A stretch of 37,594 nt of DNA, taken from Janibacter limosus NBRC 16128. Its GTDB lineage: Bacteria; Actinomycetota; Actinomycetes; Actinomycetales; Dermatophilaceae. Position numbers and translations under genes: made by a program. Positions 102 to 21,045 of the stretch are shown piece after piece. The notes under the pieces were generated by a model that was given only the letters and a program-made list of their open reading frames with translations, was not told the DNA's origin and did no database searches. Positions within the stretch are counted from its first letter, which is position 1; the number at the start of each line of letters is the position of its first letter. Location of the stretch: NCBI RefSeq assembly GCF_001570985.1, contig NZ_BCSS01000035.1, positions 1-37,594 on the forward strand. The letters run 5' to 3'.

Positions 102-445
102 CGCCGCTGGCGCGGCGACGAAGGCGGAGCGGCCTGGCGGCCGCACCGGATGGGACCCAAACGGACTCGACCTGGCGGTCGAGCTGTGATCGTCCCGGCG
201 CGCTGCGCCGGGACCGAGATCCCTCCACCTCCGGGGCATTCCATCGTGCGGGCTCGCCCCTTCCACGCAAGCCGGGCGCTGCGCGCCGGCCGCTCCCCCG
301 AACTTTTCGGCCGGCGCTCCTACGTCGCTTGTTTCCGGCCGAAAACTTCTCCCCCGCGACCGGTTCCCCGGCTTGCGCTCCAGGGGCTCAGCGCCCGCAG
401 CTTCTTCCATTGCCCCGGAGGGGGCGGGATAAGGGGGGAGGCCAA
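102..445 (+). repeat. 344-bp direct repeat, copy 1 (hairpin-rich element)
   Basis: This segment is a diverged copy of 1842-2185, and both are 344 bases long. Invariant blocks include the three TGGC-loop hairpins (102-117, 129-144, 166-183), the block 224-247, the loop around 315-331 and the 3' block 397-445. The sequence between these blocks differs but still folds. The copy ends 38 bases before the start codon of the gene at 484. The open frames seen through it shift between copies, and conservation follows stems and loops rather than codons, so I do not call a protein here. Confidence 0.88.
228..421 (+). ncRNA. Candidate structured RNA domain, copy 1
   Basis: An 11-bp perfect long-range pairing, CCTCCGGGGCA (228-238) with TGCCCCGGAGG (411-421), encloses several hairpins: CGTG..CACG at about 244-267, GCCGG (271-275)/CCGGC (286-290), an 11-bp stem TTTTCGGCCGG (304-314)/CCGGCCGAAAA (335-345) with a 20-base loop, and GGGC (384-387)/GCCC (393-396). 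The 10-bp stem at 192-214 lies just upstream. Several stems are maintained with different bases in copy 2. The plus strand is assumed because both copies precede plus-strand genes. It matches no RNA family I can name, and it could instead act as DNA (origin, recombination or protein-binding site). Confidence 0.4.
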
Positions 446-483
446 CAGCCTCCTAGCCACCAGTCATCGAGAGGACCGCACCC

Positions 484-765
484 ATGAGCACCAAGACCAC
501 CGAAACCACGATCGAGACCACCGATCTGGTGTGTGAGTGCTGCGCCGTGGCCCTCGTCAACGATGACACCAGCGGGTGCGCATGGGCCTGCATGAACAAC
601 CACGTCGAGAAGCTGGGCCGGTACGCCGAGTACCCCGAGACCGCCCGCGTCGTCTACCTCGACTGGGAAGGGCCGACCTTCCACGGATCGTTCGTCTGCG
701 CCGGATGCGGCGAGAACGACCCCCGCGGCTACGCCGGACGAGTCGAGATCACCACCCAGCCCTAA
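484..765 (+). CDS. Small cysteine-rich protein (unknown function)
   Basis: This is a 93-aa protein I do not recognise. It has two cysteine clusters, CECC near residue 18 and CAGCGEND near residue 73, with further cysteines at CAWAC, suggesting one or two zinc sites. There is no signal peptide or membrane segment. The N-terminus is Thr-rich. The start ATG at 484 follows GAGAGGA at 469-475, a moderate Shine-Dalgarno. The gene sits directly downstream of repeat copy 1 and before the DUF3560 gene, so the repeat forms or lies within its upstream region. A role in plasmid accessory functions is only a guess. Confidence 0.7.
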   Translation: MSTKTTETTIETTDLVCECCAVALVNDDTSGCAWACMNNHVEKLGRYAEYPETARVVYLDWEGPTFHGSFVCAGCGENDPRGYAGRVEITTQP

Positions 766-779
766 CGCTGACCCGCTTT

Positions 780-803
780 GACCATACAGACCACACAACA
801 CAG
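780..803 (+). repeat. CA-rich leader repeat 1
   Basis: The block starts GACCATACAGACCACACA and runs into ACACAG, directly before the Shine-Dalgarno AAGGAG of the gene at 814. Near-identical blocks precede the genes at 2255, 3259 and 4525, and a looser one precedes the gene at 3740. Confidence 0.7.
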
Positions 804-813
804 AAGGAGCGCC

Positions 814-1767
814 ATGAACACGCTGACCATCACTCACAGCCCCACCGAGGGAACCACGATCGACGGGACCGAGAAGGGCGACGGGAGCGCCCCGGCCCTG
901 AAGTCCTTGGGCTGGCGCTGGGGCCGCACCATCGGCGCGTGGTACGTCCCGCACAGCCGCGACAAGACCCCCAAGATGCACGTCATCAACCCCACCACCA
1001 CGGCGCTGGAGGCGGCCGGGTTCATCGTGACCGTCATCCTCGACATCACCGAGCCCGACCCCGCCGAGGTCGAGGCCAGAAAGACCCAGCGCGAGGCCCA
1101 GCGCGCCGAAGCGATGGCCGCGAAGGCCGAGCGCAAGCAGGCCACCGCCGAGCAGGCATGGACCCGCGCCGACGCCGCGCACGAGGCACTGCCCCCCTTC
1201 GGTGAGCCCGTAAAGGTTGGACACCACAGCGAGAACCGCCACCGCCGAGCCCACGACCGCGCCTGGAGCACGTTCGGACAGGCCGTCGAGGCCGACCGGG
1301 TCGCAGAGCAGGCCACCCGCAGCGCCGCGACCGCCGCCCGCGCCACCACGGCCCGCCACAACCCCATCACCGTCGCAAACCGCATCGCAAAGCTTGCGTC
1401 CGAGATCCGCAAGATCGAGAGCACGCTGGCTGGGGGCCCAGCGTGGCGCAAGGACAACGAGGGCGCGGGCTACCACCTCGAGCACGTCCAGCCCCACGGC
1501 GAGCACCGCGACCAACTGGAGGCCACGCGCGACGCCCGCGCCCGCGACCTCGAGTTTTGGCAGACCGTCCGCGACGAGCAGATCACCGCAGGCGAGGCCA
1601 CCAACTACGGGCCGACGACCGTCAGCAAGGGCGATGCCGTGAAGATCCGCGGCCAGTGGCGACGAGTCGCCCGCGCCAACACCAAGAGCGTCAGCGTCGA
1701 GACCGGCTACAGCTGGACCGATCGCACCCCGTGGCACGAGGTCCAGGACCACCGACCCGCCACCTAG
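814..1767 (+). CDS. DUF3560 domain-containing protein
   Basis: This is a 317-aa protein of the DUF3560 type. The recognisable core is a long charged helical stretch (about residues 85-130, rich in Glu, Ala, Arg and Lys) followed by EPVKVGHHSENRHRRAHDR (about 132-150) and another helical region. Family members occur on actinobacterial plasmids and phages next to SSB and antirestriction-like genes; their function is unknown. The ATG at 814 is preferred over 778 because AGAAGGAG lies just upstream of it and the CA-rich leader occupies the interval. A C-terminal segment with KGDAVKIRGQWRRVARAN looks like a small beta-rich module. A strong hairpin at 1786-1821 follows the stop. Confidence 0.85.
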   Translation: MNTLTITHSPTEGTTIDGTEKGDGSAPALKSLGWRWGRTIGAWYVPHSRDKTPKMHVINPTTTALEAAGFIVTVILDITEPDPAEVEARKTQREAQRAEAMAAKAERKQATAEQAWTRADAAHEALPPFGEPVKVGHHSENRHRRAHDRAWSTFGQAVEADRVAEQATRSAATAARATTARHNPITVANRIAKLASEIRKIESTLAGGPAWRKDNEGAGYHLEHVQPHGEHRDQLEATRDARARDLEFWQTVRDEQITAGEATNYGPTTVSKGDAVKIRGQWRRVARANTKSVSVETGYSWTDRTPWHEVQDHRPAT

Positions 1768-1785
1768 ACCACCCCGAGGGGGGCC

Positions 1786-1821
1786 GCCCCCTTCGTCCCC
1801 GATCAAGAGGGCGAAGGGGGC
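1786..1821 (+). terminator. Hairpin terminator after the DUF3560 gene
   Basis: GCCCCCTTCG (1786-1795) pairs perfectly with CGAAGGGGGC (1812-1821), and an inner CCC/GGG pairing shortens the loop. It starts 18 bases after the stop codon. There is no T tract. The same CGAAGGGGGC core recurs in the 16-bp hairpin at 3634-3669. Confidence 0.6.
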
Positions 1822-1841
1822 CAGGCCCCGAAAACCGAGCG

Positions 1842-2185
1842 CGCCGCTGGCGCGGCGACGCGGCGGAGCGGCCTGGCGGCCGCACCGGATGGGACCCGAA
1901 CGGACTCGACCTGGCGGTCGAGCTGTGATCGTTCCCGGCGCGCAGCGCCGGGACCGGTATCCCTCCGCCTCCGGGGCATTCCATCGTGCGGGCACGCACC
2001 CTGCGCGCAAGGCCAGCCCTACGGGCCGGCCACTCCCCCGAACTTTCCCTCGGCGCTCCTACGTCGCTTGATTCCTCGGGAAACTCCTCCCCCGCGGCCC
2101 GGTTCCTGGCCTTGCGTTCCGGGCGCTTATGCGCCCGCAGCTTCTTCCATTGCCCCGGAGGGGGCGGGATAAGGGGGGAGGCCAA
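1842..2185 (+). repeat. 344-bp direct repeat, copy 2 (hairpin-rich element)
   Basis: This is the second copy of 102-445. Its TGGC-loop hairpins are at 1842-1857, 1868-1883 and 1905-1922, and the 9-bp stem around GCA follows near 1932-1952. The two copies are identical over long blocks and differ in discrete patches that are mostly stem positions. It fills the gap between the DUF3560 gene and the small gene at 2255. No gene is called inside it. The long minus-strand open frame across 388-2010 is attributed to base composition. Confidence 0.88.
1968..2161 (+). ncRNA. Candidate structured RNA domain, copy 2
   Basis: It has the same enclosing 11-bp pairing as copy 1 (1968-1978 with 2151-2161). 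Inside are CGTGC..GCGCG (about 1984-2007, with a G-T pair), GGCC-A-GCCC (2011-2019) pairing with GGGC-C-GGCC (2023-2031), TTTCCC (2044-2049)/GGGAAA (2078-2083) closing the conserved 20-base loop at 2054-2073, CCTGG/CCGGG, and CGGGCGC (2120-2126)/GCGCCCG (2131-2137) with a TTAT loop. Stem sequences differ from copy 1 while pairing is largely kept. Its function is unknown. Confidence 0.4.
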
Positions 2186-2254: not shown

Positions 2255-2518
2255 ATGGACAGCAGCAACAGCCAGGACGAGCACATGGTTGCCGTCGTCT
2301 TCGACGTCGTCGGAGCGCCGAACCAGCAGGCCGCGGCCGAGATCGTGCGCGAGGCACTACGGATGCACACGGGCAGCCACTTCGGAGCCGCACGCGACGA
2401 GGTCAACGCCACCCAGCCCGAGGGCCGATTCCTTGAGGCTTGGTGGTTCCCCGAGGCCGTGGACAAGGTGGTCGACGGCAACGACCGGCCGGCTGCAACG
2501 CTCGTCTTCAACGAGTAG
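2255..2518 (+). CDS. Small conserved-looking protein (unknown function)
   Basis: This is an 87-aa soluble, acidic protein that I do not recognise. It reads like one small alpha/beta domain: a beta strand MVAVVFDVVGAPN, a helix QQAAAEIVREALRMH, then a C-terminal segment with PEGRFLEAWWFPEAVDKV and a closing strand. There are no cysteines and no membrane segment. The ATG at 2255 is chosen because AGGAGGA lies at 2245-2251 and the CA-rich leader precedes it. Longer readings would run back into repeat copy 2. A strong terminator hairpin follows at 2531-2558, so it may be a single-gene transcript. Confidence 0.75.
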   Translation: MDSSNSQDEHMVAVVFDVVGAPNQQAAAEIVREALRMHTGSHFGAARDEVNATQPEGRFLEAWWFPEAVDKVVDGNDRPAATLVFNE

Positions 2519-10021: not shown

Positions 10022-11518
10022 ATGGCCAAGCCTCGCGTTCACCAGGTTGCAAAAGAAGTGGGCATACCGGCCAAGGACGCCATGCGGCTACTCGCCGAGA
10101 TGGGTGTACCTGCTATATCCGCGAGCGGGACAATCACGCCGCGACAGGCTGAGGATCTACGCAGGGCTGTCGACGATCGTCGTCAGACCCGTCAGGAGGA
10201 AAGCCAAGGTAGGTCGTCACCCGTACACCCCTCGGCTCGCGCCGCGCAGGTTCGCCGGTCCCTGCTGAGCCGCGCAGAGTCGGACTGGTCGAGGTTCGAC
10301 TTCAGCAATGCTGACCAAAGAGCCTGGATAGTCGCTGGCGTCCCGATCGACAAGGCGCACCTGGCGGCGATAGCGCGTGAAAGTTCCCGACGCGACCGGC
10401 AAGGCCCACGCATCACAGCTGACACGCTGCGGCAGGAGTGCCGGCCAGGTGAACGCGTTATCGACGCACTTGTCGCGGGGACAAACGCGATCCGTGTCGA
10501 GGAACGTCTCGCAAAGCGTGGTGGCCAGCCCCTGCGGGGTGTCGATGAGCAGCTGCTTGCCGTCGCAACTTCGTCGCCCCTCCCCGCAGAGACCGACGTC
10601 GACGGCCTCGTCGAGGCCTTCCGGGCCGCAGAGTGGACCCCGAGAAGCACGCCTCGGGTCGCCGATCTTCTCATCCGAGCCATCGAGCCCCGCGAGCCGC
10701 GCCTCCGCGCACTAGCAGTGCTGGGAGAGCAGGTCAGCAGGTATAGCGCGGACCGAACCGTCGGATCGCTGCTCTCCGCCTATGCACGAGCACATGGGGT
10801 CTTTCACGTCGACGAGCACCTTGAGCTTCTATGCCGGGAAGGTATGGACGAATCTGTCGCTGACGCCCCCAAAACCCTTGTCGTGCTCCAACTCCTACGG
10901 GACGCAGTCAGGTCAAGGAACTTCTACTTCATTCGCGAGGGCGCCCGCAGCGCGCTCAGCATGGAGGCGACCGGGTCTAGCCAAGACCAGCCGGGGGTGC
11001 GCGCGGGGATCGGGTTCACCGAGGACATTTCCCAAGCGCCGGGCAGCGTTGTCGCCTGGTCTCCCGGCCCCCTTGGGGAGACCGTGTGCATCACGCTCAG
11101 TAGTAAAAAACAAGCGCGCTTGCTATCCGGCAAGAACTGGCTCACCGAGGTCGAAACGTACGCGGCATACGTCGAGCAGGCGGGCTCCGCCGCGGCGATG
11201 ATTGCCGGGCTCACCACTCCACAGGTGAGAGCGAGTAGCACAACGCACCCAGGGGACGAGGGGCCTCCGGCGCAGCCGCCTCCCGGCACCCGCCTACGTG
11301 ACGTGGTCATGCACTACCGATCCAGCTCGGATGACCAGATCACGAACCCTTCACCTCGACCTCGGCACAGCCCCGATCACCGCTGGCTCGTACGGGGCCA
11401 CTACCGACGGCAGTGGAGCCCCAGGACCCAGACGCACACACGCATCTGGATTGAGGAGCATGAGTCAGGGCCCGCCGACAAGCCGTTGCTGATCCTCGAG
11501 AGGGTGATCGTCAGCTGA
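10022..11518 (+). CDS. Protein with IF2_N-like N-terminus and a conserved C-terminal module
   Basis: This is a 498-aa soluble protein. Residues 1-55 (MAKPRVHQVAKEVGIPAKDA, then LLAEMGVPAISASGTITPRQ) resemble the IF2_N helical domain at the start of bacterial IF-2. The GTPase that should follow is absent. The middle is an Arg/Ala-rich helical region. The last 55 residues (HRWLVRGHYRRQWSPRTQTH, then RIWIEEHESGPADKPLL) match a module I know from many actinobacterial plasmid and phage proteins of unknown role. TACGCT lies eight bases before the ATG and no Shine-Dalgarno is seen, which suggests a leaderless transcript. A regulatory or defence-related role is possible; neither is shown. Confidence 0.75.
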   Translation: MAKPRVHQVAKEVGIPAKDAMRLLAEMGVPAISASGTITPRQAEDLRRAVDDRRQTRQEESQGRSSPVHPSARAAQVRRSLLSRAESDWSRFDFSNADQRAWIVAGVPIDKAHLAAIARESSRRDRQGPRITADTLRQECRPGERVIDALVAGTNAIRVEERLAKRGGQPLRGVDEQLLAVATSSPLPAETDVDGLVEAFRAAEWTPRSTPRVADLLIRAIEPREPRLRALAVLGEQVSRYSADRTVGSLLSAYARAHGVFHVDEHLELLCREGMDESVADAPKTLVVLQLLRDAVRSRNFYFIREGARSALSMEATGSSQDQPGVRAGIGFTEDISQAPGSVVAWSPGPLGETVCITLSSKKQARLLSGKNWLTEVETYAAYVEQAGSAAAMIAGLTTPQVRASSTTHPGDEGPPAQPPPGTRLRDVVMHYRSSSDDQITNPSPRPRHSPDHRWLVRGHYRRQWSPRTQTHTRIWIEEHESGPADKPLLILERVIVS

Positions 11519-11889: not shown

Positions 11890-12543
11890 TCAGCCGTGCG
11901 GTCTCGCGGTCTCATGGATAGGCTCTTCGCGTCGGAGAGGGAAACACGTGGAGTGCTCAGTGGCGCGGCCTCCTAGGAGCAACTGGCGTGTGGCGTGTAC
12001 CGCGAAGTCGGACACGGCTGCAGGGTCATCCCCCTGGTCGACCCTGCGGATGCAGGCGTCGACGACGGACTGGAGCACGGTCATGGCCAGGTCAGGATGC
12101 GGGTACCCAAACTCGCGCACTGCTGGCTCGAGGGCCTCTTGCAGCGATATGTGCATGTCCGCCACGCGCTGTCGGGCCGCTGGTGAAAGTGACGTGCGGG
12201 ACAGTGCGGCCCGCCAGCCGTGGGTTCCGCTGGCGGCCTGCTCGAGGTTAGATCTGACGTATGCGGCGATCTGCTCTTCCGGGGTGGTTTCGGCTGCGAT
12301 CGCGTGCTCCACGGCCTCGATCCAGGCGGGGAACTCTCTGGTGACGATGAGCTCGAGCAGGTCGTCAATGGAGTCGAAGTAGCGGTAGATGCTGTTGCGG
12401 GCGATCCCCGCTCGTGCTGCAACCGCGCCAGCGGTCAAAGCATCCATACCGTCCTCGTCGAGGATCGCCTCGGCCGCATCGATCAGCTGGGCTAGTCGGC
12501 GAGCCCGGTGCTCGCGGACACTCCCGGCGTCGATCTTGGGCAT
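11890..12543 (-). CDS. TetR-family transcriptional regulator
   Basis: This is a 217-aa TetR-type repressor. The N-terminal HTH spans about residues 15-62 (LIDAAEAILDEDGMDALTAG, AARAGIARNSIYRYFDSID), and the helical C-terminal ligand domain follows. The ATG at 12543 is chosen over 12573 because AGGGGGGAAG sits just before it. The gene is divergent from the MMPL transporter with 141 bases between them. A 23-bp imperfect palindrome at 12628-12650 in that gap is the likely operator, so it probably represses the exporter until an exported compound or lipid binds. Confidence 0.92.
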   Translation of the reverse strand: MPKIDAGSVREHRARRLAQLIDAAEAILDEDGMDALTAGAVAARAGIARNSIYRYFDSIDDLLELIVTREFPAWIEAVEHAIAAETTPEEQIAAYVRSNLEQAASGTHGWRAALSRTSLSPAARQRVADMHISLQEALEPAVREFGYPHPDLAMTVLQSVVDACIRRVDQGDDPAAVSDFAVHATRQLLLGGRATEHSTCFPLRREEPIHETARPHG

Positions 12544-12627
12544 CTTCCCCCCTGCAACGCGATGACAACGCACAACAGCCTATCCGTCTTCCGGGGTTCC
12601 GTTTGGCAAGTGTTACATTGGCCGCGT

Positions 12628-12650
12628 CTTAGCGACACCCTGTCCCTAAG
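12628..12650. promoter_or_regulatory. Putative TetR operator
   Basis: CTTAGCGACA (12628-12637) and TGTCCCTAAG (12641-12650) are inverted around CCC with one mismatch. It lies between tetR and the MMPL gene. TTGGCA at 12604-12609 could be the -35 of the transporter promoter, in which case the palindrome covers the -10. This assignment is inference from position and symmetry. Confidence 0.55.
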
Positions 12651-12684
12651 GTGTATTTTCTGGCTCTCCGTTCAAGGATTCTTG

Positions 12685-15249
12685 ATGCAGTCGATCTACT
12701 CCCGCGCGCTCCACGGCCTGCTGGGCTCGAAGAAGCGCGCCGCCATCGTGGTGGTTTTCTGGGTGGTGCTGGCCGGTCTTCTCGCGGGCGTGGCGCCCGC
12801 GCTGGATTCGGTCGAGGACAACACCTCAGCCAACCTGCCGCCTGCGGCCTCGGACTCGATGACGGCGCGCGACCTGGTGCGCTCAGAGCTGCCCGGGCAG
12901 GACACGACGCCTGCCATCGTCGTGGTCCAGGGTGAGGGCAGCAACGCTGAGGCGGACGTCGAGGAGGCCGTCACCCGGATCACCTCTACGCTGACCGGTT
13001 CAACGCGGCCGGACCACGTCGCGAGCGTGGTCTCGACGGTGAGCACACCCGGGGCGGCAGCCGACCTGGTGTCCCAGGACCGCACGGCGCAGCTGCTGAT
13101 CGTGCCAATGACCGGCAGCCCCTCGGACGAGTCCTTCCAAGACGCCGTTGACGACGTGCGCGACGGCGCGTCCGACGCCGCCGGGGCAACGAGTGTCGCC
13201 GTGACCGGTCCAGCCGGCATCGCGACCGACACGGTGAAGGTCTTCAGTGGCGGCGACAAGGTCCTGCTCCTGGCCACGATCGTGCTGGTCCTGGTCATCC
13301 TGCTGTCCATCTACCGCTCCCCGTTGATGGCGCTGGTGCCGCTGTTGGCTGTCGGGGTGGCAATGCGTGTCGCTGAGACCGTCGGCGCGATCCTCGCCGA
13401 CGCCGGGATCATCACGGTCAGCTCCCAGACCGCCTCGATCATGACGGTGCTGCTCTTCGGCGTGGGCACCGACTACGCGCTGATCATCACCGCCCGCTAC
13501 CGCGAGGCACTCCTGGAGGAGCCGTCCCTCCCGCGGGCGATGCAGACCGCTATGCGCCGCACGACCGAGTCCGTCCTGGCCAGCGCCTCCACGGTTGTAC
13601 TAGCGATGTTCGCCCTGCTGGTGGCCCTCTCGCCCGCACTGCGTGGCTTCGGTCCCTACCTGGCACTGGGCGTTGCTGTCATGGCCTTGGTGGCCTTCAC
13701 TTTCATCCCCGCGCTGACGCTGCTGTTCGGCAGGGCCGTCTTCTGGCCTGGGAGTGTGGCCAAAGCGGCCGAGCGCTCTCGCGGGGGCAAGGTATGGCAC
13801 CGCATCGCGGCTCTCGTCGCCCGCGCTCCCGTCCGGGTGGCTTCAGCCACCGTGGCGGTTCTGATCGTCATGAGCATGGGGATGCTGGCCTACCAGCAGA
13901 GCTTCAACACGCTCAGCGGCTTCCGCGCCGACACCGAGTCCGAGCAGGGTCAGCACATGATCCAGGAAGCGTTTGGCGACGGCGAGATTGCCCCCAGCAC
14001 CGTCGTCGTGAGTTCAAAAGAGGGCCTGGGCACCGGCTCCGCGCCAAAGCAGATCGCCACGGCGCTCGGTGACGCTGACCACGTCAGCCGCGTGGGAGAG
14101 CCCCGCCTGGGTGAGGACGGCAAGACGGTCTTCTACGACGTGGTGCTTGACCTCGACCCGTACAGTCCGGCGGCCCTAGACGCGATCGACCCACTCAAGG
14201 ACACCACCCGGACCGCTGCTGAGGAGGCCGGTGTGGAGGACGCCACGGTCGTTATCGGTGGCGAGACAGCCCAGACCGCTGACATCCGCTCGGCCCTGGA
14301 GCGCGACACCGTCTTCATCGTGGCGTTGGTCCTGCTCATCGTCACAGCGGTCCTCGTCTTCCTGTTGCGCTCGATCCTCGCTCCGATCTACCTGATGGCG
14401 ACGCTCATCCTGTCGTTCGTGGCCACCCTTGGTGCCACAACCTTCTTCACCCTGACGGTTCTGGGCGATGACGGCATCGGCAACCGCGTGACCGTCTACA
14501 TCTTCATCTTCCTTGTCGCCCTCGGCGTGGACTACAACATCTTCATCATGAGCCGGTTCAGGCAGGAGCTGCGCCACCGGCCACCGGCGCAAGCCATCAG
14601 CGCCGCCCTGACTCGCACCGGCGGAGTCATCTCATCCGCCGGACTCATCCTCGCCGCAACCTTCTCGGTGCTGATGACCCAACCGATCCGCGAGCTGTTC
14701 CAGTTCGGCTTCGCGATGGCCTTCGGCATCCTGCTTGACACCTTCCTCGTGCGGCCCCTGCTGGTCCCGGCCATCGTCCACCTCCTGGGCGACAAGGCCA
14801 TGTGGCCACTGCGCCCGGACCATCCGACCGCCTCAGCGCTCCCGACGCCCACCGCCACAGATCCCGTCGCGCCCCGGGCTCCCGGGTCCAAGATCTCCGG
14901 TGGACGGCTACAGCGCGTCTTCACGTGGATTGCGGTCGTGGAGGCTTTCACCTGGGCGGGGCTCTTGACCGGCATGTATTTCAAGTATGTCCCCGAGACC
15001 ACCGACCTCGGCGTCCGGATCTTCGGGACGCTGCACGGAGCCGCCTTCATCACCTATGTGCTTGTGACGATCTCGATGGCAGTCCGCCTGAAATGGCGCC
15101 TCGGCCGCACCCTTCTCGCACTGCTGGCCGCGGTGCCGCCGTTCATGACCGTGGTCTTCGAGGTGTGGGCTCGACGCACTGGCCGGCTCCCCGGGACGGC
15201 CGTGACGTCAGCCTTCGACCCGGTCACCGGCGTCCCGGTCACGAGATAG
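12685..15249 (+). CDS. MMPL/RND-family transporter with C-terminal DUF3817 domain
   Basis: This is an 854-aa membrane protein. It has the double MMPL layout: TM1 near residues 12-32, an extracytoplasmic loop, a TM bundle with GTDYALIITARYRE (about 260), then a second copy with the matching GVDYNIFIMSRFRQ (about 615). Such proteins export lipids, siderophores or drugs with proton force; the substrate is unknown. Residues about 742-840 (LQRVFTWIAVVEAFTWAGLL to AVPPFMTVVFEVWARR) are a DUF3817 membrane domain, usually a separate small protein, so this looks like a fusion. The ATG at 12685 has AAGGA upstream. It is probably controlled by the divergent TetR and is the clearest cargo gene here. Confidence 0.92.
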   Translation: MQSIYSRALHGLLGSKKRAAIVVVFWVVLAGLLAGVAPALDSVEDNTSANLPPAASDSMTARDLVRSELPGQDTTPAIVVVQGEGSNAEADVEEAVTRITSTLTGSTRPDHVASVVSTVSTPGAAADLVSQDRTAQLLIVPMTGSPSDESFQDAVDDVRDGASDAAGATSVAVTGPAGIATDTVKVFSGGDKVLLLATIVLVLVILLSIYRSPLMALVPLLAVGVAMRVAETVGAILADAGIITVSSQTASIMTVLLFGVGTDYALIITARYREALLEEPSLPRAMQTAMRRTTESVLASASTVVLAMFALLVALSPALRGFGPYLALGVAVMALVAFTFIPALTLLFGRAVFWPGSVAKAAERSRGGKVWHRIAALVARAPVRVASATVAVLIVMSMGMLAYQQSFNTLSGFRADTESEQGQHMIQEAFGDGEIAPSTVVVSSKEGLGTGSAPKQIATALGDADHVSRVGEPRLGEDGKTVFYDVVLDLDPYSPAALDAIDPLKDTTRTAAEEAGVEDATVVIGGETAQTADIRSALERDTVFIVALVLLIVTAVLVFLLRSILAPIYLMATLILSFVATLGATTFFTLTVLGDDGIGNRVTVYIFIFLVALGVDYNIFIMSRFRQELRHRPPAQAISAALTRTGGVISSAGLILAATFSVLMTQPIRELFQFGFAMAFGILLDTFLVRPLLVPAIVHLLGDKAMWPLRPDHPTASALPTPTATDPVAPRAPGSKISGGRLQRVFTWIAVVEAFTWAGLLTGMYFKYVPETTDLGVRIFGTLHGAAFITYVLVTISMAVRLKWRLGRTLLALLAAVPPFMTVVFEVWARRTGRLPGTAVTSAFDPVTGVPVTR

Positions 15250-18405: not shown

Positions 18406-18702
18406 TCAATTTGCCTCAGGTGGGCGCGTAGTTGTCGGCGGCTTGGCGGCCTTGCGCGGTCGCCCTGGCCGCTTGCGTCCTGGCTCGACCAGGCCGACCT
18501 TGCGCAGTTCGGCAACGGACCACCCGGCGCGCTCGGCGTCGGACCACTGGGAGGCGTAGTTTCGCTCGGCCGAGCTGAGGGCTTCTTGGGCCTGTGCGAG
18601 CTGGGCCGATGAACCGGCCAGCTTCTCAATGATCGCGATGCGATCGTTCAGTAGGTCGCGGGCGGCGGCCGCTGCTCCCTCGGGCGTGATGTCGCTGCTC
18701 AT
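18406..18702 (-). CDS. Small coiled-coil protein with an AT-hook-like tail
   Basis: This is a 98-aa protein. A helical, probably coiled-coil part (residues about 12-60, with LAQAQEALSSAERNYASQW) is followed by GRKRPGRPRKAAKPP near the C-terminus, a GRP core flanked by basic residues as in AT-hooks. It lies divergently upstream of the oriT candidate and mobC, so a relaxosome or transfer-regulation role is plausible. The ATG at 18702 is chosen over 18765 because the protein pattern begins there; the Shine-Dalgarno is weak. Confidence 0.65.
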   Translation of the reverse strand: MSSDITPEGAAAAARDLLNDRIAIIEKLAGSSAQLAQAQEALSSAERNYASQWSDAERAGWSVAELRKVGLVEPGRKRPGRPRKAAKPPTTTRPPEAN

Positions 18703-18833
18703 GTTGCCCAGAGTACCGGCGGAGGCGACTTCCGGGACGACCCCGACCACCACCCGTTCCCCCAAGCGCCGTACACGACCGACGCGTTCTGATCAGGAAA
18801 CCCTCAAAACTCGATACAGACAGCAAGATGGAG

Positions 18834-18928
18834 AGTTATGTGCCATAACTTCGTTCCGATCTCGCGTTCCCACTCGATCGGTGCCACACTTTGGGTGTGG
18901 AGTCCCGCCGTTCGGCGGGTCGCTGCGC
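18834..18928. other. Candidate oriT
   Basis: A non-coding stretch just before mobC and the relaxase holds several inverted repeats in a row: AGTTATG/CATAACT (18834-18850), CCGATC...GATCGG, CCACAC/GTGTGG around TTTGG near 18891, and CCCGCCG/CGGCGGG around TT near 18904. A series of hairpins next to mobC is the usual layout of an origin of transfer. The nick site cannot be placed from this sequence alone. Confidence 0.5.
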
Positions 18929-18949
18929 TGGCAAAAGGAGGTGGGCGGC

Positions 18950-19381
18950 GTGGCCGAGTCGGAGGGCGTGTCCCGATCGAAGAGTGCGCCAGGGCGTCGG
19001 CGCATGAATGCGCAGGATCCACGTAGCCACCGGGTGGTGGTTACGTGCACCGACGACGAGTACCGGATGCTCTTCGGGCTGGCCGCTGCCCAGGGGATTT
19101 CCTTGCAGAACGTCCTCATGCGTGCGGCGATGTCTGGCGGCACTCAGAGTGCCCAGAAGACTGCCGAGCTAGTCGACGAGTTGCGCAGCACGCGGCAGTT
19201 GCTAGCGGTGGCCACGGGGTTGCTGAATCAGTTGGCGAAGGTCGCCAACTCCACTGGGAGGCTGCCCGAGGAGATCCCGGAGGCGCTGTCGATGATGCAG
19301 CGCGGGTCACAAAAGGTCGACGGATTCCTCAACGAGTTCAGCGAGCGGTTTTCCTACGATGGCCGAAGGGGGCCGTTGTGA
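18950..19381 (+). CDS. mobC: MobC-type relaxosome accessory protein
   Basis: This is a 143-aa protein. After a basic N-terminal tail (SRSKSAPGRRRMNAQ) it has HRVVVTCTDDEYRMLFGLAA and SLQNVLMRAA, a beta strand plus two helices of ribbon-helix-helix type, then a helical C-terminus (LVDELRSTRQLLAVATGLLN, QLAKVANSTGRLPEE) typical of plasmid MobC. It should bind oriT and help the relaxase open the DNA. GTG 18950 is selected for AAGGAGG at 18935-18941 with eight bases spacing. Its stop overlaps the GTG of the relaxase gene (GTGA, 19378-19381), so the two are co-translated. Confidence 0.85.
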   Translation: MAESEGVSRSKSAPGRRRMNAQDPRSHRVVVTCTDDEYRMLFGLAAAQGISLQNVLMRAAMSGGTQSAQKTAELVDELRSTRQLLAVATGLLNQLAKVANSTGRLPEEIPEALSMMQRGSQKVDGFLNEFSERFSYDGRRGPL

Positions 19382-21045
19382 TCGTCAAGCTCGTTAAGCC
19401 AGGCAGTGACCTGCCCGGCCTCGCTGCCTACCTGTGGGGTCCTGGCAAGGCTGAGGAGCACACAGATCAGCGCATGATCGCGTCCACGGGCGCGAGTGAG
19501 ATGACCCTGGGATCATCGTCAATGTTCTTCCGTGGCGAGCGTGCAACCCTGCTCGACGATGCGGCGCTGTCGTCGACCGACGCCCGGGCTGAGGGCAGGC
19601 ACATCGAAGCATCGTGGCGGTTCTTTCGAGACGAGGCCAGCGTGCCGGTCGCGGCTGGAGCCGTCGCGGTGGGCGAGGGGAGCCAGGCTGGAGCCGGCTC
19701 CGCCCAGGCGGATGAGTTTCGAGTCGAGGCACCTTGGGTGTCGGAGGAGCGTCAGGAGCGCACCGGGTGGAACAGGCCGCACGTGATGCACGTCGTGTTC
19801 TCACTCCGTGCCGACGAGGGCGAGCTGTCCGATGAGACATGGGGGCGTATCGCGAGCGATTGGGTGCGCGAGATGAAGCTCGCAGGCAACGAAGGGGAAG
19901 CGGACTGCCGGTGGGCGGCTTGGCGACACGGCAAATCCGCAACCGGGAACGACCATATGCACGTCGCGCTGTCACTGGTACGTGATGACGGACGGTGGGC
20001 GAACGTGCATCGCAGCAAGCTGCGCTCTCGAGCAATCGCGGATGAGTTGGAAGAAAAGTACGGGTTGAACAAGGTCAAGGACACGGCCGAGCAGCGGGGG
20101 ATGCCGGGCACCAGTCGTGGGGAATGGCGACGTGCTGACGAGGCGAAGGAAACTGGCCACAAGGAGATTCCAGAGCGTCAAAGACTGGCACTGGTCGTGC
20201 GCACCGCAGCGGCGCACGCCGCGACCGAGAAGCAGTTCATTGCAGATGTCCTGCGCCAAGGAGTGCAGGTACGTCCCCGCTTCGCCAAGGGAGGAACCGA
20301 CAGCGTCATTGGGGCGTCGTTCCGATTCCGTGACGGACAGGACCAGCAGTGGCTTGGCGGTGGGCAACTCGGTCGGGACCTGACGCTGCCGAAGCTTCGG
20401 CAGATGTGGAACGACACCCCACATGAGCGCGCCGAGGCGCTGAGGGTTTGGCAGGGCGGTGAGGGCGTTCGCAGATCGCAGGCCGTGCCGGCATGGGCCC
20501 CGTCGTGGAACGCCGCACAGCAGGCATTGGCGACGTGGGCCACCAGGATCGAAAACCTCGATCCTCAGGACGCCGGGGCGTGGGCACAGGCAAGCCGTGA
20601 CGCGGCCGCCGTCGCGAGCGAAATGACCCAGGGCTCCGGTGGACGACAGCACCAACTCCTCGCGGCGACCACGCAGGAGCTGGCCAGAGGCGCGCAAACG
20701 CGCCACGGTTTCAACCACTCCACAGCGGAAGAGGTCCGCGTGGCCTGTCGCCATATGAATCTCCTGATGCGCGCCGGGTCCAAGTCGGACGCGGCGGGTT
20801 GGTGGGCGGTCTGGCAGCAGTTCTCCCGCGTCAACCAGGCCATTCATAGGGCCCAGAGAGCGCGCGGCGAGTTCGTGCGTGCTGAGCGCTTGGAGACCGC
20901 TGCCAGGACCGAGTTGCAGTCGGTGGCCAGCGGGTTGCGCAAGGCCGCTACCGCGCAGAGCGCGGCCCCGGCGACCAAGCCACCCACGGGCGCACGGCGT
21001 ACGACTAGGGACACCACAACACGAGGGGAAGAGCGAGGACGATGA
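19378..21045 (+). CDS. Relaxase (mobilization nuclease)
   Basis: This is a 555-aa relaxase. Tyr18 in LAAYLWGPG is the candidate nucleophile, and WRHGKSATGNDHMHV gives the metal-binding histidines (H184, H193, H195). GKAEEHTDQRMIAS near residue 24 is typical of actinobacterial relaxases. It would cut oriT, stay bound to the 5' end and lead the strand through the T4SS. The C-terminal half is helical and less conserved. The start is GTG 19378, overlapping the mobC stop. The stop overlaps the ATG of the next gene at 21042, making a three-gene mobilization operon. Confidence 0.93.
   Translation: MIVKLVKPGSDLPGLAAYLWGPGKAEEHTDQRMIASTGASEMTLGSSSMFFRGERATLLDDAALSSTDARAEGRHIEASWRFFRDEASVPVAAGAVAVGEGSQAGAGSAQADEFRVEAPWVSEERQERTGWNRPHVMHVVFSLRADEGELSDETWGRIASDWVREMKLAGNEGEADCRWAAWRHGKSATGNDHMHVALSLVRDDGRWANVHRSKLRSRAIADELEEKYGLNKVKDTAEQRGMPGTSRGEWRRADEAKETGHKEIPERQRLALVVRTAAAHAATEKQFIADVLRQGVQVRPRFAKGGTDSVIGASFRFRDGQDQQWLGGGQLGRDLTLPKLRQMWNDTPHERAEALRVWQGGEGVRRSQAVPAWAPSWNAAQQALATWATRIENLDPQDAGAWAQASRDAAAVASEMTQGSGGRQHQLLAATTQELARGAQTRHGFNHSTAEEVRVACRHMNLLMRAGSKSDAAGWWAVWQQFSRVNQAIHRAQRARGEFVRAERLETAARTELQSVASGLRKAATAQSAAPATKPPTGARRTTRDTTTRGEERGR

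Follow-up and report, generated by a model that had tools for sequence, protein, structure and literature searches.

The window analysed here is a whole contig of 37,594 bases from Janibacter limosus NBRC 16128 (NZ_BCSS01000035.1), and it carries two copies of a hairpin-rich element, at positions 102-445 and 1842-2185, each lying ahead of open reading frames (ORFs) on the plus strand. A first-pass annotation made from the sequence had read the element as a candidate novel structured RNA and had added that a role at the level of DNA was possible. The anatomy on which it relied is largely sound. Aligned end to end, the copies are equal in length at 344 nt with 88% identity, and in each the same 11-bp pairing of CCTCCGGGGCA with TGCCCCGGAGG (228-238 with 411-421, and 1968-1978 with 2151-2161) encloses 194 bases. 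The apical stem of copy 1, TTTTCGGCCGG (304-314) with CCGGCCGAAAA (335-345), is a perfect 11 bp, and in its counterpart in copy 2, TTTCCCTCGG with CCTCGGGAAA, pairs are replaced and two mismatches occur. The small local hairpins described at 244-267, 271-290 and 384-396 stand only in part, as they compete with a longer-range pairing of approximately 256-276 with 367-387. The parts of the two copies are as follows.

222-428, minus strand (the folding strand): core hairpin of copy 1, from folding and homologues.
228-238, minus strand: outer stem of copy 1, the far (3′) arm on the minus strand, pairing with 411-421; covaries in homologues.
411-421, minus strand: outer stem of copy 1, near (5′) arm, the proposed template at the transcription start.
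243-248, minus strand: -10-like box CACGAT of copy 1; in the predicted fold the first two bases are paired and the others mostly open.
265-270, minus strand: -35-like box TTGCGT of copy 1, paired with about 373-378.
304-345, minus strand: apical hairpin of copy 1, with loop motif GAAACAAGCGACGTAGGAGCGC at 314-335.
1962-2168, minus strand: core hairpin of copy 2, from folding and homologues.
1968-1978, minus strand: outer stem of copy 2, far arm, pairing with 2151-2161.
2151-2161, minus strand: outer stem of copy 2, near arm.
1983-1988, minus strand: -10-like box CACGAT of copy 2; in the predicted fold bases 1-3 are paired, 4-5 open and 6 partly paired.
2005-2010, minus strand: -35-like box TTGCGC of copy 2, paired in the predicted fold.
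2053-2074, minus strand: apical loop motif GAATCAAGCGACGTAGGAGCGC of copy 2.

Judging from the spacing of these parts, transcription at copy 1 would start near position 413.

Selection on the folded single strand, which the first-pass annotation had deduced from the differing stems, is borne out by covariation statistics over homologues. Across 43 copies of an Arthrobacter type, standard pairs fill 89.8% of the cells of a 75-pair structure compared with 80.0% after shuffling, and when partners are slid out of register 42-52% of the cells (at most 51.5%) are paired, a comparison that favours the true structure because it was derived from the same 43-copy alignment. Changes on both sides of a pair affect 43 pairs and 273 cells, against shuffled values of 28.6 and 88.3 that none of 500 shuffles raised to the observed level. 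In a second set, made up of ten window-type and divergent copies, 22 of the 31 predicted pairs show a double change, and the outer stem is rewritten with its pairing kept in the copies from Arthrobacter sp. ERGS1:01 and Yimella sp. cx-51. The element resembles no named RNA family, as was originally noted: the window has no Rfam match at the gathering score, and a permissive search of positions 1-2700 (to E = 10) returned four weak matches, none of them inside the two cores.

The strand that folds is the one bearing the apical loop (AGCGACGNAGGAGCGC), which is the minus strand in the window. With DNA parameters the loop strand folds better than its complement in 42 of 43 and in 10 of 10 copies of the two sets (52/53), compared with 103 of 172 control segments taken from the same contigs in the same orientation. 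The plus-strand fold was also considered as the functional one and was ruled out by strand energy. Hairpins with a C-GNA-G triloop have exceptional stability in DNA. This form makes up 24 of 72 triloop hairpins on the loop strand of the 43 copies, with none on the complement and a mean of 1.9 (maximum 4) in shuffled sequence. The apex itself has the C-GNA-G form with one free base within the loop, and is shrunk to GCGAAGC or GCGCAGC in five of the 43 copies.

A promoter-like pattern lies on the far (3′) arm of this strand. Read outward, T[TA]GNNN-N16-NANNAT is present in 69 of 76 non-redundant copies (66 drawn from 119 full copies, plus the set of ten), whereas it is found 1, 0 and 0 times in the other three combinations of arm and strand, and on average 0.8 times (at most 4) in shuffled arms. 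The seven exceptions mostly miss the pattern narrowly: three have TGGACG, and a 17-base spacer, TATACT and CAGAGT account for others. The usual boxes are TAGACG or TTGACG with TACAAT, TAGAAT or TACGAT, and a second type combines TTGCG with GATGAT. Among 55 Arthrobacter-type rows, the second base of the -10 is A and its last base T in all 55, and in the -35 the G is present in 55 and the first T in 54, with T (21) or A (30) at the second base; 11 divergent rows of the 66 were excluded from these row counts because column trimming breaks them. In the ten-row alignment the TTG of the -35 and the A and T of the -10 are invariant. Under a loose consensus 60 of 65 copies have the boxes in the proposed reading; gene-facing matches number 3 and 13, and another 13 matches lie in loop sense on the near arm. 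For the window type, an earlier -10 candidate at a spacing of 21 bases was given up, the 16-base frame having fitted the other types. In the predicted folds of 68 copies, the mean pairing probability is 0.79 for the -35, 0.47 for the -10 and 0.20 for the A of the -10, so that with the -35 mostly and the -10 partly paired the rebuilt promoter would be only part duplex. In duplex DNA the far-arm boxes point away from the neighbouring gene and in the fold they point toward it; since the near arm would then serve as template, transcription would exit the stem into the gene. The strand preference and the far-arm boxes point away from a structured RNA and toward a folded minus-strand DNA promoter. 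The passing remark on a DNA-level role was the better half of the earlier interpretation.

Genes are found at a near-fixed distance from the element. Copies were gathered with a profile built from 105 copies, after inspection by eye had removed 31 sources, including the window, as chance matches or as foreign or off-type sequences; one dropped source, L145, later matched the profile at 69.5 bits, and L112, which was retained, looks like chance. Distances were counted for 150 of 175 profile rows, those scoring at least 60 bits. By a simple ORF caller, 96 of the 137 copies with enough flank are followed within 260 nt by the start of an opposite-strand ORF with a ribosome site, and 77 of these 96 called genes have their start codon at 43-84 nt from the profile edge (50 of them at 52-59). 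On the other flank an ORF is seen in 54 of 134 cases, at scattered distances. The first genes fall into several families, namely DUF4192 (36 of the 96), an unnamed protein of about 142 amino acids (aa) (19), ParB_N (17) and DprA (13), with the remainder small. Behind window-type copies we find LPD29, SSB, a weak ParB_N match and an M78/IrrE-type protein, frequently as the second ORF. The nicotine plasmid pAO1 is a carrier of the family, and in the direction outward from its relaxase and mobC the genes for SSB, glutaredoxin, ParB-N, DUF4192 and DprA share one sense, with other genes there running either way. The corresponding features of the window, together with those further from the elements, are these.

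484-765, plus strand: 93-aa ORF, its start codon 55 nt past the copy 1 core hairpin.
814-1767, plus strand: 317-aa ORF with DUF3560.
2255-2518, plus strand: 87-aa ORF, its start codon 86 nt past the copy 2 core hairpin.
102-221, minus strand: row of further short hairpins beyond the outer stem, found in both copies of this plasmid.
18629-21045, plus strand: weak NikA-like ORF (NikA at 26.7 bits, the Pfam cut-off being 27) overlapping the relaxase ORF (PF03432).

The 93-aa ORF has no Pfam or NCBIfam match and the 87-aa ORF no family match, and the DUF3560 ORF probably belongs to one transcription unit with 484-765. A 32-base leader, 94% identical, precedes both the DUF3560 ORF (777-808) and the 87-aa ORF (2219-2250), and a perfect, terminator-like 12-bp inverted repeat lies directly past the latter (2531-2558). 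In the row of outer hairpins, three consecutive ones per copy (102-184 and 1842-1923) are seen by eye to have differing stems and a constant loop TGGC (GCCA on the minus strand).

Elsewhere, the window encodes ParA, a resolvase, a zeta-type toxin and a relaxase (plus strand), and on the minus strand TraG-like, SCO6880-family and weakly VirB4-like proteins. This set of ORFs marks the contig as a conjugative-type plasmid or element; no terminal overlap was found in the whole window at the lengths tested. The NikA-like and relaxase ORFs lie on the same strand as the genes that the elements would drive, and downstream of them. Two domain arrangements were also seen, an MMPL transporter fused to a C-terminal DUF3817 in a single ORF (12508-15249) and an IF2_N domain at the N-terminus of a 498-aa ORF (10022-11518).

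Relatives of the element are mainly found in one bacterial order. A blastn search with copy 1 of the window matched two plasmid records, those of Arthrobacter sp. ERGS1:01 and Yimella sp. cx-51, both actinobacterial, and a search of a phage collection with the window copy gave no match. Among 186 genomes of the window's own family, 30 (its own included) match at E <= 0.001, mostly over short stretches, and motif matching combined with reading of the sequences identified the full architecture in five besides the window (G055, G149, G185, G009 and G044). Used as a pattern, the minus-strand apical loop occurs in at least 119 stretches of species genomes; of the 80 matches listed, 53 carry the names of Arthrobacter or close relatives, and single copies named Nocardioides and Rhodococcus are also among them. 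An Arthrobacter-type copy matched 163 places in 60 of 72,556 plasmids by blastn, distributed over Arthrobacter (36), Paenarthrobacter (14), Pseudarthrobacter (9) and Citricoccus (1), and 42 of these 60 plasmids are typed as conjugative, 10 as mobilizable and 8 as neither. A sample of 396 genomes of the order has the exact motif in 13, of which one or two may be chance occurrences, and a sample of 396 from the phylum has it in 1, which is the window's own. From the genus counts and the order and phylum samples, this form of the element is concentrated in Micrococcales in the NCBI sense.

Some matches fall outside this range. Four motif matches in viral contigs were set aside, L163 alone folding better on the motif strand. 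Arthrobacter-type copies are present in records titled Vibrio cholerae 35D (L073, L116) and in one of a Spirosoma metagenome-assembled genome (L078), and these are probably mis-assigned contigs. Firmicute genomes (Ruminococcus and Clostridiales records) have a long hairpin, almost perfectly paired, that shares the apical loop, GAGATAAGCGACG[AC]AGGAGCGC, on the plus strand at L044:4368 and on the minus strand in L089, L080 and L106. The -35 and -10 boxes were not seen by eye in these four hairpins, which possibly represent a distant relative or convergence.

The element holds a constant orientation within its plasmids. A relaxase gene could be located in 38 of 61 element plasmids, taking one best place in each (for the other 23 it is absent among the matches listed, the best 60 of 82 and 60 of 245 records). 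In all 38 the element strand is opposite to the relaxase gene and on its 5′ side, 2.5-67 kb away; as the plasmids are related, these are not 38 independent events. No oriT was identified. The window conforms: its elements are on the minus strand and its relaxase, 17 kb further downstream, is on the plus strand. Where a locus has at least two profile matches, they run the same way in every case (35 of 35), with the proviso that a few of the matches are fragments of a single copy and that some of the loci sit together on a contig. As a rule, the relaxase gene is in the portion of a plasmid that reaches the recipient last (PMC11541004). Given this rule and the 38 concordant orientations, the element strand is presumably the transferred strand and the region presumably the leading region.

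The single-stranded promoters Frpo and ssi, for which Masai and Arai (1997) is reportedly the source that is cited, offer the closest comparison. They belong to plasmid F and ColIb-P9 (PMC9849209, PMC11541004), and Frpo1 and Frpo2 are described as 92% alike, approximately 5 kb apart, folded into stem-loops with -10 and -35 boxes and required for early expression (PMC9849209). Our element shares with Frpo a long hairpin on the strand opposite the leading-region genes, two or more similar copies on a plasmid and a place immediately ahead of early genes, ssb among them. Plasmid F was treated as a control. Its direct repeats, separated by 5.4 kb and 90-95% identical in pieces, precede ssb and an ORF at 64,032, and both fold better on the strand opposite those genes (-110.1 vs -101.6 and -137.7 vs -122.2). 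A ParB-type gene is likewise present in the F stretch compared, outside which the relaxase gene lies. No sequence similarity to Frpo was found, F being present in the plasmid collection and unmatched by blastn of either the window or the Arthrobacter copy. Points of difference from Frpo are a 16-base spacer, a -10 paired only in part, an apex that in most cases is a AGCGACGNAGGAGCGC mini-hairpin, and hosts mainly from Micrococcales; promoter activity here is a prediction. The EGeRS1/2 elements of pLS20 (PMC8708921) are comparable as repeated elements tied to establishment operons on a Gram-positive plasmid. However, for EGeRS1 the authors, in the text available, argue against a promoter in single-stranded DNA, there being no promoter in the fold and the transferred strand being non-template.

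We consider it likely, judging from sequence, that each copy is a single-stranded-DNA promoter that folds on the strand entering the recipient and switches on the genes that follow. Support comes from the conserved structure, the strand preference, the position and sense of the boxes, the near-fixed distance to the start codon and the single orientation relative to the relaxase. The family would be Frpo-like without sequence kinship to Frpo, mainly of Micrococcales, and on sequence evidence would work in the same way. Probably it evolved separately, as a set of single-stranded-DNA promoters on conjugative plasmids of actinobacteria whose conserved -35 and -10 boxes are directed at the gene only when the transferred strand is folded, and away from it in duplex DNA.

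The course of events that we infer, including transcription from the single strand, its timing, priming and the nick site, would be as follows. In conjugation, the minus strand, as the presumed transferred strand, would enter the recipient single-stranded and fold into the long hairpin. The stem would render the -35 double-stranded and leave part of the -10 on the non-template (far) arm open, allowing host RNA polymerase to load, to follow the near arm outward and to continue into the next gene on its single-stranded template. Second-strand synthesis would then remove the hairpin, and the same boxes in duplex DNA would point away from the gene, so that with the hairpin lost and the boxes reversed the genes would be on only just after entry. 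The transcript may in addition prime second-strand synthesis, as reported for Frpo.

Several observations weigh against this reading. On average the copies fold at -60 kcal/mol, a moderate gain only over other DNA of the same contigs (-54). The box pattern was read off the very sequences in which it was counted, and the control for it is therefore provided by shuffles and by the other readings and not by an independent set. A strict consensus (TTG[AC]NN, 15-19, TANNNT) is present in 9 of 65 copies in the proposed reading, with 0 in the other three; 30 of the 55 Arthrobacter-type rows carry TAG and not TTG in the -35; and the last T of the -10 is mostly paired (0.78 over the 68 copies). In the window itself the -10, CACGAT, is weak, and the predicted folds pair two or three bases at its start. 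No gene was called by the simple ORF caller in 41 of the 137 copies, and the chromosomal copy in G009 has no convincing gene after the element. A scan of F's own Frpo for -35 and -10 revealed no clear boxes, although PMC9849209 reports them in the excerpted text. A single argument, the relaxase-last rule of PMC11541004, assigns the transferred strand, and a leader tied to leading-region genes would give the same orientation. In the ten-copy set C-GNA-G hairpins number 8 on the loop strand and 7 on the complement, and the complement of the 43-copy set has 12 UNCG-type tetraloops, which would suit a plus-strand RNA. Finally, G.T and A.C mismatches stand at 25:15 (43 copies) and 9:3 (ten) when the structure is derived with Watson-Crick pairs only, which is modest support for the loop strand. 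With G-U allowed, the ratios become 251:60 and 29:6 for a structure derived on the loop strand and 39:73 and 9:16 for one derived on the complement, and the wobble count is given little weight here.

Among other explanations, the one that survives best is a single-strand origin or primase site (sso/ssi), in which the folded transferred strand recruits RNA polymerase or primase solely to make the second-strand primer. It calls for the same folded strand with the same strand bias, the enrichment of C-GNA-G triloops on the loop strand of the 43 copies (24 against a shuffled mean of 1.9 and maximum of 4) fits it, and the sso of Gram-positive rolling-circle plasmids and ICEBs1 are likewise active only as folded single-stranded DNA, some being read by RNA polymerase (PMC4595007). 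However, the sso are described there for priming, whereas here several copies per plasmid precede different genes at a near-fixed distance from the start codon, which suits gene control better than priming alone. We regard priming as the sole function as unlikely, and the two functions are compatible, Frpo being reported to do both.

A plus-strand leader RNA acting in cis, as a riboswitch-like element or attenuator within the 5′ region of the mRNA of these genes, would explain the near-fixed place upstream of start codons, the covariation and the UNCG-type tetraloops on the plus-type strand, and is compatible with the relaxase orientation, which would follow from that of the genes themselves. 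Against this, the plus-type strand folds less well in 52 of 53 copies, the boxes face the wrong way, a gene-facing strict promoter is found in 0 of 65 copies (3 and 13 with the loose consensus), and the first genes come from at least four different families, all of which make such a leader improbable. More doubtful still is a trans-acting non-coding RNA from the minus strand, which would agree with the better folding of that strand and with its loops, purine-rich by eye; it would have to start in the short stretch between element and start codon, whereas the sole conserved minus-strand promoter pattern is at the far end and reads outward, and there is no Rfam match. Same-orientation copies separating different genes could also be explained by a site for recombination or transposition in folded single-stranded DNA, for instance a cassette boundary resembling an integron attC, but we give this hardly any credence in view of the near-fixed distance before start codons, the conserved -35 and -10 boxes that would have no role there, and the gene tables of four plasmid stretches, in which by eye no gene named integron integrase lies beside the copies, other recombinases and one site-specific integrase being present.

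Single-stranded promoters have been documented or proposed, as far as the excerpted literature goes, in enterobacterial plasmids and in an insect-gut metagenome element. The leading-region survey of PMC11541004 reports no Frpo similarity in its Streptococcus island, and the term 'actino' is absent from its main text in the form available; a literature search at the level of titles and abstract openings returned no report of such an element in actinobacteria. If the single-stranded-DNA promoter reading is true, the strategy extends to actinobacteria, with strong covariation in plasmids of the Arthrobacter group including pAO1. It would also define a leading-region regulon of dprA, ssb, ParB-like, DUF4192, LPD29 and DUF3560 genes, whose unnamed members would be pointed toward roles in anti-defence or establishment. 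The AGCGACGNAGGAGCGC apex together with T[TA]G-N19-NANNAT provides a sequence handle with which early-expressed genes of unknown function, for example DUF4192 and DUF3560, could be listed, and it would become directly testable which are the first genes to act following conjugation in these hosts.

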